Shown: positions 24,267-28,679 of the stretch, piece by piece
How the letters are laid out: each line of letters opens with the position of its first letter
Position numbering within the stretch: position 1 is the stretch's first letter
Source: Pedobacter fastidiosus
Lineage (GTDB): Bacteria; Bacteroidota; Bacteroidia; Sphingobacteriales; Sphingobacteriaceae
Reading direction: 5' to 3'
DNA: 64,000 bases
NCBI RefSeq assembly: GCF_014306625.1
Contig: NZ_JACRYL010000001.1
Location: forward strand, 1-64,000
The notes under the pieces: model-generated
What the model saw: only the letters and a program-made list of their open reading frames with translations
Databases searched by the model: none
Told to the model about the DNA's origin: nothing
Made by a program: the position numbers and the translations under genes

Positions 24267-24471
24267 TTACTTATTCCTTGCTCTAACACTAAACTTTGTT
24301 CTATCCATTCTGGGGTTGATTTTCTTCTGGGAAATTGTAAGCAATGCCGTTTCAATAATTTGCAATTCGCAAACGTTCTTTCCAGGTTAAGGTGCGATAA
24401 TATTCAGCATGAGATTTTGAAGCTTCTTCTGCAGTTTGGGCTTTAAATGCTGTTCTGTCTAAACGATACAT
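24267..24471 (-). pseudogene. Broken small gene with nonsense codon and frameshift
   Basis: From the ATG at 24471 the reading begins MYRLDRTAFKAQTAEEASKS, continues with YYRTLTWKERLRIANY, then hits TGA (24354-24352). The same frame resumes NGIAYNFPEENQP, and after a 1-nt shift at a run of four C (about 24312-24316) goes on PRMDRTKFSVRARNK to a TAA at 24267. The conserved-looking blocks (YRLDRTAFKAQT, ERL.IANYLN.IAYNF, MDRTKFS) look like a short hypothetical family of Bacteroidota of unknown function. Nothing else is evident from 24013 to 24266 apart from the pdhB promoter, nor from 24472 to 24500. Confidence 0.65.
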
Positions 24472-24500
24472 AATCAAATGTAAATATTTTATAGATTGAT

Positions 24501-25058
24501 TTAATGGTTCGGATTCAATAATCCGTAAATCTCGCTATCTAAAAACTGCCCTCTAAAATAAAAATCTTGTTTGAAATGAGCTTCTTTTACAAAACCATGT
24601 TTAATGAGCATTTTTCGTGAGGCATTGTTTTCTACATTAATATTTGCCTTGATAGTATGCAGATTCATGTCTCTGAAACCGAAATCGATTGTTCTTTTTA
24701 AGGCCTCAGAAATAATGCCTTTTCTCCAATAATCAGGGTGGAGCATGTAACCAATTTCTGCTCTGTGATTAGCAAAATCGGTTCGCCAGTAACCAATTGA
24801 GCCAATCATGTGGTTAGGATTTTCTTTCAGCGCAATAACCCAAGCCAAATTATCGCCGTTTTCAAAGCCATCGTTAAATGTGGTAATGAAAGTTTTAATT
24901 TCCAATAAATCTTTTGGCCTTTCACGGTCGATGTACTTCATTACCGTTTCATTGGTGCGCATGGCGAAAAGTGTTTCAGCATCAGAAAGATGATGCTCTC
25001 GAAGAATTAATCGCTCGGTTTCGAGGATTGGAAATTTAGTGAAGTTAAGGGTTAGCAT
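24501..25058 (-). CDS. GNAT-family N-acetyltransferase (RimJ/RimL-like)
   Basis: 185 aa. Begins with the RimJ-type opening FPILETERLILREHHLSDAETLF; the acetyl-CoA loop region is seen in IGYMLHPDYWRKGIISEALKRTIDFGF and the end in NNASRKMLIKHGFVKE. Such enzymes acetylate protein N-termini or small amines; the substrate is unknown. It starts 3 bp after the transposase stop, so it may be read from the same transcript. Confidence 0.88.
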   Translation of the reverse strand: MLTLNFTKFPILETERLILREHHLSDAETLFAMRTNETVMKYIDRERPKDLLEIKTFITTFNDGFENGDNLAWVIALKENPNHMIGSIGYWRTDFANHRAEIGYMLHPDYWRKGIISEALKRTIDFGFRDMNLHTIKANINVENNASRKMLIKHGFVKEAHFKQDFYFRGQFLDSEIYGLLNPNH

Positions 25059-25061
25059 TTT

Positions 25062-25496
25062 TTATTCTTTTCGTAATTCAAATTTATACTTATCGGCGAA
25101 CTCTTTTACTTCTTCTTCAAAAGATTTTTTGTTATGATGGTTCTCCTGATTTTTAATGTAATTACTGACAATCTCTAAGCTTGATTCACCAACGGAAACC
25201 GCAAAATAATCATCTTGCCACATAAAGGTTTCGTCGGTTAATTTATTTTTATTTATCCAATGGGCTGATTCGCCTTTAATTAGTTGTGCAATTTTAGCTA
25301 TACTTTGTTCTTTTCCTATAGATATCAAGCAGTGCAAATGTTCTGTATAACCATTAATAGCTTTCAGGAAAATTGATTTCTCCTTACAGTTTTCAATTAT
25401 GTGGCTTTGAAGTTGATAGCGGATGTTCTTTGTTAAATAGGGATGTCGGTTTTTAGTTGAGAACACCAAGTGAACCCAAATTTTTACATACGACAT
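25062..25496 (-). CDS. IS200-like Y1 (RAYT-type) transposase
   Basis: 144 aa, intact. The HUH pair is seen in HLHCLISI and the nucleophile Tyr in VSNYIKNQENHH; the start YVKIWVHLVFSTKNRHPYLT is typical of the Y1_Tnp (TnpA/RAYT) family, which cuts and joins single-stranded DNA at hairpins. There is no tnpB partner. A REP-like hairpin array lies immediately upstream (25507-25813), the hallmark of domesticated REP-associated transposases. No comparable hairpins lie on its downstream side, where GNAT starts 3 bp later. Confidence 0.88.
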   Translation of the reverse strand: MSYVKIWVHLVFSTKNRHPYLTKNIRYQLQSHIIENCKEKSIFLKAINGYTEHLHCLISIGKEQSIAKIAQLIKGESAHWINKNKLTDETFMWQDDYFAVSVGESSLEIVSNYIKNQENHHNKKSFEEEVKEFADKYKFELRKE

Positions 25497-25504
25497 ATTT
25501 TAAA

Positions 25505-25784
25505 GTTTGGCTAAAGCCAATGTAGTGATTTATTTTTATTCCGTCGGCTGAAGCCAGACGGCAAAGAAATGGATTGTTCAGATAGCGATTTTATTATAGC
25601 TGTGGTAAGATATTTATTGCCGTTGGTTTCAACCAACGGTTTGAGTTTGGCTAAAGCCAATGTAGTGATTTATTTTTATTCCGTCGGCTGAAGCCAGACG
25701 GCAAAGAAATGGATGGTGCAAATAGCTATTTATTACAGCCATGGTTTAATATTCATGGCCGTTGGTTTCAACCAACGGTCAAAG
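25505..25784. repeat. Tandem 140-bp REP-like repeat, two units
   Basis: Unit 1 is 25505-25644, unit 2 is 25645-25784; the first 70 bp are identical and the rest diverged. Each unit holds three hairpins: TTGGC-TAAA-GCCAA (25507, 25647), CCGTC-GGC-TGAA-GCC-A-GACGG (25541, 25681) and CCGTTGG-TTTCAA-CCAACGG (25620, 25759). It lies directly upstream of the Y1 transposase and covers most of the gap to the addB-like gene. Confidence 0.88.
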
Positions 25785-25799
25785 GACAATAAGTAAAAA

Positions 25800-25813
25800 T
25801 CGGCTTCAGCCGA
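25800..25813. repeat. Single REP-like hairpin at the end of the array
   Basis: TCGGC-TTCA-GCCGA, the reverse form of the GGC-TGAA-GCC core of the array. It ends 1 bp before the stop codon of the addB-like gene. Confidence 0.7.
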
Positions 25814-25814
25814 T

Positions 25815-28679
25815 CTACTTCCCAAACAGCGTTTTATAAATCGAATACTTATAATTATCTGGAATTTCACTAGCCTTAAAATATGGCGAACCAAAAAGCT
25901 CAGCAAGTTTTTCTTTCAGTTTGGCCAAAAATATGGGCTTAATTTCTTCAAGGAAATCGCCACGCAAAACTTGCCTGTTAGATCTAAACCACACACCACC
26001 AAAAGCCGGATCGTTCATTGTTTTTACGATATACAAATTCGGTTCGACACAAGTTTTACCAGAAAATTGTTCATAAGCAAAGGTGTAAAGTAAGGTTTGA
26101 ATTAACGCTTTATTGATGTGTTTTCCATCAGAATTGAAAAGTTCATCAACATCCTTAAAAGCCAATTTATCACTTCCTGTTTTGTAATCGACGATTTTTG
26201 TAACGCCATCTTTAACATCAACCCTATCAATATAACCGAATATTTTTACGCTTTCCTCTTTCCCGTTTAGCGGGAAACTAATTACCGCCTCCACCTTTTG
26301 CTCCAAACTAATAATGGTAAAAGGTGCTTGAGAAATATCTTGATTGAGGATAATATTTACATAAGCATCAACAATGGCAAGAATCACTTTTTGCATGCCT
26401 TTATATTCCATCACCAAATCCGGATGTTTAAACATCACCGCATTAAAAGCTTTCTGGATTAACTTAGGCACATTTTTTATTTGCTCATTAATGCGTTCGG
26501 CGGTAATTTCTGATTGCCTTAAATCTTGATAGAAATATTCCATCACTTTGTGCAAAATGGAACCAATTTCATTCGCCTCAACAACTGCGCTGATTTCTTT
26601 TGGCTCTTTAATTCCGGCAATATAGTTGAAGAAAAAATCTATAGGGTTGGAAATATATTGCGTTAAAGCCGATGGAGATAGAATTTTCTTTTTATCGAGA
26701 TACTTTTGCAACGTTTCCTGAATAAAAGCATTTCCAGTTTTCTCAATCTGAACTTCCTTAAATGATTCCGTTTTTACATCGAGATTTAGCTCGTTATAAG
26801 TAAACTCAAAACCACTTTCATATTCCAGTTGCTTTAAAATTCTGCTGGCCTCACCAGATGTAGATTCATCGGTTAAACTGTTGTAAACGAAGTTGATATT
26901 CTTCGCTCTTTGCATTAATCTGTAAACCATGTAAGATGAAATGGCATCAAGATTTTCCAAAACCGGCAAGCCATAAACCCTGCGAATAGAATCCGGAATG
27001 AAACTATTACCGATTGAAGATTTAGGTATAATACCTTCATTAAAGCCCAAAATTACAACTTTATCAAAGTTTAGGTTTCTGGTTTCGAGTAATCCCATCA
27101 CTTGTATTCCATTTAACGGATCTCCAGAAAGCGGAACCGCAATGGCTTGCAATGATTTCTGAACCAAGTAAATCACAAAAGGAATTTCCTCTTTTCCAAT
27201 ATGATTACTGAAAGTATCATGCAATCTATTTAACTCTTGAATGGTTTTTACAAACAGTTCAGCATCAATTTTCTTTAATGTTTTTGCGTTCGATAATCTG
27301 GTTAAAACGAAATCCAAAACATCCAACAAATTGGTTACCACGTGCTGAGGATTATCGATTTTCTTATAAAAAGCCTCGAATAAACCACTTTGTCTGAGCA
27401 AACGTTTATGGTCAATTTCAACTTTGTTTTCTTCCAACAGAGCAGTTAAAATTTTATCACGCATTTTTTGCGTTAAACCAGTTAATGGATGGGTTAAAAA
27501 TGCCTCGACATTTTTGTAGGTTACTTTATCGGCTTGTAAAATTTCCAGCTGACTGGTTAACCATAAATCGACCAAGCCAAAAATGCTCGAGGTTGATAAG
27601 GCAAAACCCATGGTTACGTTTAGGTCGATTGCCGAACCATTAAAAGTAGTTGGGATGGTTTGTAGAGTTGGAATCAGCAAACTTTCATCAGCTAAAACCA
27701 CAACGGTTTTGCCAACACTTTCTGCATCTGTATAATCCTCCTCTAAAATATTATTCAGAATTTTTGCTTGTGCCGATTGCCCCTGAACTTTGAAAACGTT
27801 CACATGATGTTCGCCAGTTTTCATCAAGCTTTCTTGATTTGCAAATACGTTTTTTAAACCTATTTGATTTAGGTTTTTCCGCAAGAATAAACCAGCCTCT
27901 TGTGAGGCATCGTCCAAGTAATAAGTATCTGCATCGAAGTAAAATATCGCCCTATCTGCCTCTTGTAATTGAGTAAATATTTTTGCCTCGGCGCTACTTA
28001 GCGCATTGAAACCAACGAAAACAACTTTTCCCTTATCAAAATTTGAAATAAATTCTTGATGGTTCGTAATATCATCTGCCAAATGGCGGTAAACAGAACC
28101 GTTTGTTAAATAGCCTTGTTCTTTAAGCGTAGCATGAAATTTATGATAAAGCTTAGGCATTCTACGCCACATTTTTATAAATAATTCCTGCTGTTTTTTG
28201 TGTTTTCCTTCCGAGTAGGAGGTCCAGAATTGAGAGAGAAATTCATATTGTTCAGGACTTAAATAATCGAATTCTTTGTTGATAACGGAGATGTCTTCTA
28301 AATCGCGATACAGTTTTTCGGCATCAACCAAATCTGCATCAATTTGGTTAAAATCGCTTAAAATAATTTTGGCTAAGGGAAAAAATTTATGACTGGAAAT
28401 GGTTTCCAATTTTTCTTCGGCTAAAAGTTGATTGTAGATTCTATGCAGTGTGAAAAACTGCAAATAGAAATCGGCGATTTTATAACTTGTTGAGCAGGCA
28501 AAAAACTCTTGTATGGTAAAAAACGACGGACTAAAAAAAGGCTTGCCAATTAAATCTGCAAAGTGTTTTTGTAAGTAAGCTGCTGGTCGTTTATTATTAA
28601 AAACAATGGCGCAGTTTTCCAGTTGATTTCCAAATTTTGCAACTAAATCTTCGGCAACTTCTTGTAAGAATGGTTTCAT
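25815..28679 (-). CDS. AddB-like PD-(D/E)XK nuclease/helicase-fold subunit
   Basis: 954 aa. The C-terminal quarter holds a RecB-type nuclease domain: LSPSALTQYISNPIDFFFNY, EIGSILHKVMEYFYQ, and GYIDRVDVKDGVTKIVDYKTGS with the catalytic Asp...DYK core. The N-terminal part resembles a degenerate UvrD fold (VVILGFNEGIIPKSSIGNSF). Together with the upstream UvrD/RecB-like gene it forms an AddAB-type complex that resects double-strand breaks for recombination. I see no clear four-Cys iron-sulphur cluster of Bacillus AddB. 156 bp of repeat DNA separate it from its partner. Confidence 0.85.
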   Translation of the reverse strand: MKPFLQEVAEDLVAKFGNQLENCAIVFNNKRPAAYLQKHFADLIGKPFFSPSFFTIQEFFACSTSYKIADFYLQFFTLHRIYNQLLAEEKLETISSHKFFPLAKIILSDFNQIDADLVDAEKLYRDLEDISVINKEFDYLSPEQYEFLSQFWTSYSEGKHKKQQELFIKMWRRMPKLYHKFHATLKEQGYLTNGSVYRHLADDITNHQEFISNFDKGKVVFVGFNALSSAEAKIFTQLQEADRAIFYFDADTYYLDDASQEAGLFLRKNLNQIGLKNVFANQESLMKTGEHHVNVFKVQGQSAQAKILNNILEEDYTDAESVGKTVVVLADESLLIPTLQTIPTTFNGSAIDLNVTMGFALSTSSIFGLVDLWLTSQLEILQADKVTYKNVEAFLTHPLTGLTQKMRDKILTALLEENKVEIDHKRLLRQSGLFEAFYKKIDNPQHVVTNLLDVLDFVLTRLSNAKTLKKIDAELFVKTIQELNRLHDTFSNHIGKEEIPFVIYLVQKSLQAIAVPLSGDPLNGIQVMGLLETRNLNFDKVVILGFNEGIIPKSSIGNSFIPDSIRRVYGLPVLENLDAISSYMVYRLMQRAKNINFVYNSLTDESTSGEASRILKQLEYESGFEFTYNELNLDVKTESFKEVQIEKTGNAFIQETLQKYLDKKKILSPSALTQYISNPIDFFFNYIAGIKEPKEISAVVEANEIGSILHKVMEYFYQDLRQSEITAERINEQIKNVPKLIQKAFNAVMFKHPDLVMEYKGMQKVILAIVDAYVNIILNQDISQAPFTIISLEQKVEAVISFPLNGKEESVKIFGYIDRVDVKDGVTKIVDYKTGSDKLAFKDVDELFNSDGKHINKALIQTLLYTFAYEQFSGKTCVEPNLYIVKTMNDPAFGGVWFRSNRQVLRGDFLEEIKPIFLAKLKEKLAELFGSPYFKASEIPDNYKYSIYKTLFGK

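Follow-up and report, generated by a model that had tools for sequence, protein, structure and literature searches.

The window, by which we mean the whole stretch of DNA analysed (64 kb from the start of contig C11, in a genome of 5.27 Mb), contains a gene for an HUH/Y1 transposase, tnpA, preceded by an array of short hairpins and set between a GNAT acetyltransferase gene and an AddB-like gene (Table 1). The predicted product of 144 amino acids matches Y1_Tnp of Pfam at 1.6e-28. The label AddB-like follows Pfam and the NCBIfam AddB model, whose score of 58 bits is under that model's cut-off. The initial annotation had described a Y1 HUH transposase without tnpB, and the two flanking genes bear this out, since neither is tnpB; its seven upstream hairpins were also confirmed in number and position. 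An automatic finder requiring at least 7 pairs returned the four longer hairpins, and all seven were found by reading. There is no room for a right-end hairpin, as the GNAT gene starts 3 nt past the tnpA stop codon.

Table 1. Genes and hairpins of the tnpA locus (positions are those of the window)
Feature	Position	Strand	Basis
GNAT acetyltransferase, downstream neighbour; bounds the locus on the right in most Pedobacter genomes holding tnpA	24501..25058	-	
tnpA, IS200-type HUH/Y1 transposase, subclass 1.2-like (EHLH, WQ, YIKNQENHH)	25062..25496	-	
H1' hairpin TTGGC-TTTA-GCCAA, directly ahead of the tnpA start codon	25507..25520	-	read; also in relatives
H2' of inverted pair 2: foot TTTCTTTG + CCGTC-T-GGC-TTCA-GCC-GACGG	25537..25569	-	R1 match
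H2 of inverted pair 2: foot ATTTATTG + CCGTTGGT-TTCA-ACCAACGG	25612..25643	+	R1 match
H1' hairpin TTGGC-TTTA-GCCAA, separating the two units	25647..25660	-	read; repeat analysis
H2' of inverted pair 1	25677..25709	-	R1 match
H2 of inverted pair 1	25751..25782	+	R1 match
H1 hairpin ATCGGC-TTCA-GCCGAT, adjoining the AddB-like stop codon	25799..25814	not assigned	
AddB-like PD-(D/E)XK protein, upstream neighbour; bounds the locus on the left in Pedobacter	25815..28679	-	

On the tnpA strand the hairpins follow the order H1 - [H2 ... H2'] - H1' - [H2 ... H2'] - H1' - ATG. H1 and H1' are simple hairpins of the GGCTTTAGCC type. The feet seen on the H2 and H2' hairpins of the array are TTTCTTTG, ATTTATTG and ATTCATGG; because they point inward, each H2...H2' bracket is an inverted pair comparable to a REPIN. 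Direct repeats of 88 nt (25504/25644, 95% identical, the first 71 nt without a difference) and of 51 nt (25590/25729, 84% identical) run through the array. The two units had been taken for a recent duplication; since near-identity is confined to the first half of the unit, the word "recent" can cover that half at most. Folded as single-stranded DNA, the 319-nt array has a z score of -5.9, with none of 100 shuffled sequences folding equally well. Three terminator-like sites fall in the array region, as compared with 0.7 in shuffles, and an Rfam search of positions 24400-26400 gave no match up to an E value of 1.

By profile, motif and fold, TnpA is an IS200-class (class 1) transposase similar to subclass 1.2. 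It scores 76.2 bits against the NCBIfam IS200 model, above the cut-off of 55, and 29.4 bits against the REP_Tyr_transpos model, below the cut-off of 80. An AlphaFold model with a mean pLDDT of 89.3 is nearest in fold to transposases of the ISDra2 and IS608 type (Z 14-15.7), with the RAYT structure 4er8 at Z 11.2, and a profile of the genome's three class-1 proteins retrieved eight PDB sequences at E<=0.01, all IS200/IS605-type transposases, with the RAYT not among them. We therefore reject membership in RAYT/TnpA-REP (class 2), and the name RAYT given in the initial annotation does not survive these scores, the subclass 1.2 motif and the absence of a GTAG foot. The catalytic residues are H53-L-H55 (HUH) and Y113. 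Judged by motifs and length, the protein resembles subclass 1.2 in YIKNQENHH (Y---Q--HH), WQ, EHLH and its 144 residues, the HUH motif being EHLH here and DH[IV]H in the subclass 1.2 table of Quentin et al. (2018, PMC6006769). All 29 aligned relatives, a set chosen to lack stop codons, share both HUH histidines, the tyrosine and the HH. The tnpA genes of two Pedobacter genomes, G041 (L057) and G082 (L060), each contain one in-frame TAG; these genomes have 7 and 16 hairpin copies.

The bare motif GGCTNAAGCC was rejected as a genome-wide marker of the family, as its 46 matches in the genome barely exceed the 28 of a reversed control, and by eye several of them fall within coding sequence; a definition of the family has to combine foot, stem and loop. 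The covariance model R1 describes H2' plus its foot and was built from 34 sequences, all from tnpA-holding genomes. In its alignment 97.1% of cells are paired, and 26 cells are altered on both sides, as compared with 9.2 in shuffles, none of 500 reaching as high. R1 finds 43 matches in 25 clusters in the genome at E<=0.1. Of 30 matches with fetched flanks, 29 are intergenic, that is, outside ORFs of at least 120 amino acids, which occupy 79% of those stretches. Among 18 pairs of neighbouring matches, 11 are in the "-+" order with feet inward, as expected if two inverted repeats form the unit of a REPIN, and 3 are "+-", 2 "++" and 2 "--"; gaps within the "-+" pairs are 19-67 nt in 10 of 11, and the remaining clusters are single or tandem. 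Repeats cognate to the gene thus both adjoin it and are dispersed between genes.

Relatives were located by protein alone (53 loci), and 46 of these were scored for an upstream hairpin, defined as a perfect stem of at least 5 bp closed by a T[TC][TC]A loop within 200 nt. Such a hairpin precedes tnpA in 33 of the 46 (8 of 9 in Pedobacter, 25 of 37 elsewhere), and 13 have no perfect TTYA hairpin within that distance. It occurs ahead of 2 of the 438 other ORFs in these loci, in 10 of 748 other non-coding pieces and in 9 of 4600 mononucleotide shuffles. Seven of the 53 loci were initially left out (L079, L093, L122, L125-L128); the four with a guessable start add two with a hairpin (L093, L127) and two without (L079, L126), giving 35 of 50, and L122, L125 and L128 remained unscored. 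A scan admitting any four-nucleotide loop yielded 49 hairpins, of which 47 carried TTCA, TTTA or a complement of these. A survey that excluded the seven-row divergent clade described below and was restricted to T[TC][TC]A loops recovered an H2' hairpin from 43 of 59 upstream regions; the 43 have 33 different 5' stems, and every loop is TTTA or TTCA. Loop and foot are conserved: the foot reads TTC(A/T)TTG, with G in 28, T in 25 and T in 33 of the 43 at -1, -2 and -3, and a GT[AG]G foot was not found among them. Across many Bacteroidota relatives the TTYA loop is constant and the stem changes and covaries. At up to one mismatch, the pattern TTCATTGCCGT-N4-TTYA-N4-ACGG is present in 12 of 17 tnpA-holding genomes tested, four of which have 1-3 matches and the richest 56. 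It is absent from all 4 Pedobacter genomes tested without tnpA, and its reversed control is absent from all 21. Among the 82 matches listed there are 35 distinct arm pairs, 17 of which pair at all four positions (G-T allowed); re-dealing the arms gives 4.8 fully paired, and at most 11 in 5000 trials. The sites occupied by tnpA differ between lineages and are shared in some (L096/L098/L100, L111/L117, L115/L120).

Within the genus, the number of hairpins depends on the gene. We call a genome a holder if it has a close tnpA, at least 66% identical; 19 of 99 Pedobacter genomes are holders and 80 are not. Each of the 19 has one close copy, the next-closest copies in the genome studied here are 31-32% identical, and near-identical copies at several sites were found in none of the 19. 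Copies of the hairpin, counted across the genus with Infernal under stricter filters, average 16.2 outside the locus in the 19 holders and 1.85 in the 80 others (p 8e-7), a difference that R1 may overstate in favour of holders because it was built from tnpA-holding genomes only. At least one R1 copy occurs in 18 of 19 holders, or 15 of 19 once matches in the stretch after the AddB-like gene are removed, versus 22 of 80 non-holders by either count; at least 10 copies occur in 10 of 19 versus 5 of 80. A second model, R2, was set aside; it matches at least once in each of the 19 holders and in 8 of the 80 non-holders, but was partly built from the holders' loci, and its matches in low-copy clades are mostly locus hairpins. 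On a tree of Tex (identified by Pfam) for 60 of the 99 genomes, picked to include all 19 holders, the presence of tnpA takes 18 changes and shows no clustering; relatives therefore often differ in it. For the 40 genomes of one Tex clade, the means outside the locus are 16.6 with the gene and 2.7 without, the p value weakening from 4e-4 to 0.007 once locus matches are subtracted. Seven sister pairs differ in tnpA; the holder is richer in all five informative pairs (24 versus 15, 35 versus 9, 16 versus 0, 14 versus 3 and 10 versus 5), and two are ties at 0 (one-sided p 0.03). The correspondence has exceptions on both sides. Five genomes without a close tnpA are rich in R1 copies (G061, 29; G037, 18; G005, 16; G025, 15; G044, 11), and nine of the 19 holders have 0-6 copies outside the locus (G001, G027, G031, G041, G049, G050, G051, G058, G071). 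Past loss of tnpA is a fair reading of the copies in G025, G030 and G054, because these are sisters of holders on the Tex tree and G054 retains a remnant of the gene, 33 amino acids long; a comparable sign of loss was not seen in the other copy-bearing non-holders. The layout described in the initial annotation, with REP-like hairpins beside a transposase as in a REPtron, is thus upheld. It was to be doubted if the hairpins were confined to this locus or were as common in relatives without the transposase, and neither is the case, since the copies are dispersed, intergenic and far commoner where the gene is present.

In Pedobacter, tnpA always follows the same AddB-like gene wherever the contig is readable, and the stretch after this gene could be fetched in 80 of the 95 genomes with an AddB match. 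Twenty of the 80 have no GNAT or tnpA match within about 2 kb after AddB; in the other 60, GNAT follows in 17 of 19 holders (not in G008, and the contig ends in G083) and in 33 of 41 non-holders. R1 matches follow AddB in 19 of 19 holders, a figure that is partly by construction because some of these loci went into R1, versus 1 of 41 non-holders (G054). By eye, hairpins are present in 18 of 18 readable AddB-tnpA spacers versus 2 of 27 listed spacers without tnpA (that of G087 listed in part), namely that of G054 and that of G061, which has H1-like motifs. The gene and the locus hairpins appear and disappear together. Most of the locus hairpins in the genus form inverted pairs. Identities of the neighbouring genes are at odds in G072 (L188), where AddB is 54% identical and tnpA and GNAT are 92% and 91%, and in G008 (L130), where AddB is 96% identical and tnpA 78%. 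The AddB region therefore seems to recombine, and the mismatch of AddB with tnpA, GNAT or Tex in these two genomes suggests allele swaps around the AddB gene. Pedobacter spacers lacking tnpA (L129-L188; also L299-L328) contain other palindromes, among them AACCGCAAAG..CTTTGCGGTT, CACAGAG..CTCTGTG, CGTCATTGCGAGG..CCTCGCAATGACG and GTCATTCTGAACG.., and the AddB-GNAT spacer of G087 (L143), about 1.1 kb long, has an ORF that by eye resembles another kind of IS transposase.

We looked for a trace of movement at one orthologous intergenic site, C62:177597, for which 30 loci were fetched and 25 were readable. A hairpin pair is present in four (G000, G007, G025, G079) and 18 have none; G041 has a single hairpin, and G003 and G049 have weak R1 matches. 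A clean insertion boundary was not seen among the 25 readable loci, and the spacers often hold other palindromes.

The genome encodes three other Y1 proteins. L001 and L003 show the same NCBIfam pattern as TnpA, passing the IS200 model and not the RAYT model, and L004 passes the RAYT model at 88.4 bits. Each lies near palindromes of its own: L003 (C18:494) near GCCCCTATGGGGC, L001 (C11:153178) near TGTTCCTACGGAACA and L004 (C5:126213) near GCGCAAGCGTCCGCTTGTGC. L001, L003 and their relatives form a divergent clade with other hairpins, such as TGTTCC-GTA-GGAACA ahead of L001; the clade was placed with 62 of 66 proteins, L095, L096, L098 and L110 (under 110 amino acids) having been dropped. A further 32 partial matches to the array of L001, itself a subclass 1.2-like gene, occur in the genome, some of them overlapping on the two strands; two related genes in one genome are thus accompanied by two different dispersed families.

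The reading we consider likely, with a probability of roughly 0.7, is a REPtron-like locus in which the transposase, of the IS200 class, recognises the TTYA hairpin and has dispersed it. The substrates of the IS608, ISDra2 and RAYT enzymes are folded single strands. The true RAYT TnpA-Mb needs T12, T13 and A15 of the loop and accepts any base at position 14 (Corneloup et al. 2021, PMC8266576), and its REP-Mb TTNA rule, as given in that account, agrees with the TTYA loop found here. From these needs and from the TTTA and TTCA loops of the array, we propose that TnpA would bind the folded hairpin as single-stranded DNA and read its loop, that Y113 would cut near the foot, and that pairs of hairpins would be moved or copied to new intergenic sites, the gene itself staying put. 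Copies would then decay once tnpA was lost. The hairpin ahead of the start codon may, in addition, restrain the translation of tnpA. Several observations weigh against this reading: 22 of 80 non-holders have R1 copies, nine holders are poor in them, R1 may favour holders, 13 of 46 relatives have no perfect TTYA hairpin within 200 nt, the orthologous site shows no clean boundary, and tnpA has an in-frame stop in G041 and G082.

Other explanations have to account for the same observations. The hairpins could be signals at the RNA level (bidirectional terminators, attenuators or stabilisers of mRNA), with the one ahead of tnpA silencing the gene and the link to the transposase incidental. Such a role would suit their intergenic placement, the excess of terminator-like sites in the array and the position of H1' directly before the start codon, but not a fixed loop on a variable stem, inverted pairs with inward feet, copy numbers that track tnpA, the lack of post-AddB hairpins in 40 of 41 genomes without the gene or the rarity of TTYA hairpins ahead of other ORFs; we regard it as improbable. 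Slightly less probable again, in our judgment, is that cause and effect run the other way, the hairpins having spread by other means and tnpA having inserted into, or been kept beside, an existing cluster. The sister pairs speak against this, as do the two families that accompany two related genes in one genome and the hairpins preceding tnpA at differing chromosomal sites across genera, even though some genomes are rich in copies without a close tnpA and other palindromic families occupy the same spacers in relatives.

We give very little credence to the view that the locus is a decayed IS200 insertion sequence whose subterminal hairpins have multiplied locally. The protein is indeed IS200-class by profile and fold; against this stand the want of space for a downstream hairpin, the one close copy in every holder, the same neighbour gene, and the HUH histidines and tyrosine kept in all aligned relatives (which, again, were chosen without stops). 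A transposase that recognises and spreads the TTYA hairpin remains the reading we prefer, and it can be set beside several known systems. With IS200/IS605 elements such as IS608 and ISDra2 the locus shares the protein fold, the HUH/Y1 catalytic residues and a hairpin with a 5' foot, but it lacks their tnpB, right-end hairpin and near-identical copies at several sites. The RAYT REPtrons (E. coli group 2, Stenotrophomonas/Marinomonas group 3), as described in the portions of PMC8266576 drawn on here, likewise combine a settled gene adjoining hairpins in inverted pairs with dispersed intergenic copies of a hairpin family particular to that gene; they differ in their class 2 protein, GTAG foot and hundreds of copies, as against class 1, TTC(A/T)TTG and up to tens here. 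Di Nocera et al. (2013, PMC3733652) described CGTC-tagged repeats, which are also short and palindromic and count Bacteroidetes among their hosts; identity with them is rejected on the published description, so far as used here, of a CGTC tag, A-T pairs at the stem base and no link to transposase genes.

Subclass 1.2 itself, in the parts of the survey of Quentin et al. (2018, PMC6006769) relied on here, comprises Bacteroidetes proteins of about 148 amino acids with Y---Q--HH and WQ, low copy number and a position near IS200 transposases, all of which fit TnpA. Its table entry for REPs is "no", and its members are generally without typical IS200 terminal structures, which makes it a group without a known substrate; the survey was an automatic search oriented towards canonical REPs with a GT[AG]G foot, some classes being inspected by hand. 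A literature search found no paper giving REPs for this subclass in the material covered. Here, in contrast to that published entry, a REP-like family is tied to the gene, as seen in the 33 of 46 relatives with TTYA hairpins and in the dispersal in its own genome. These observations suggest that a transposase group published without hairpins has hairpin families of its own, and subclass 1.2 would gain a candidate substrate, recognised by the simple rule of a TTYA loop and a TTC(A/T)TTG foot. For a wider proposal we would lay even odds: that REPtrons arose at least twice, the second system being centred on Bacteroidota and consisting of subclass 1.2 transposases, each with its own dispersed TTYA-tetraloop family on freely varying stems, and reaching Ignavibacteria, Planctomycetota (Jettenia) and Acidobacteriota contigs. 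If so, the TTNA loop rule of one RAYT would be shared by, or convergent in, both REPtron systems. A hairpin family tied to subclass 1.2 would widen REP biology within a phylum where little of it has been described. A settled transposase apart from the RAYTs would also offer a case for asking why bacteria retain such genes, and the patchy tnpA of Pedobacter, whose presence is matched by copy number in sister pairs, amounts to a natural experiment in gain and loss.

Two variants of the upstream hairpins were noted among the more distant loci. L065-L067 form a separate tnpA clade of 39-42% identity and have CCCACGGT-TTCA-ACCGTGGG hairpins, with the same loop on another stem. In an Ignavibacteria MAG (L097:1-476), nine GCCGTCCCATTTAT hairpin units lie in tandem directly 5' of tnpA.
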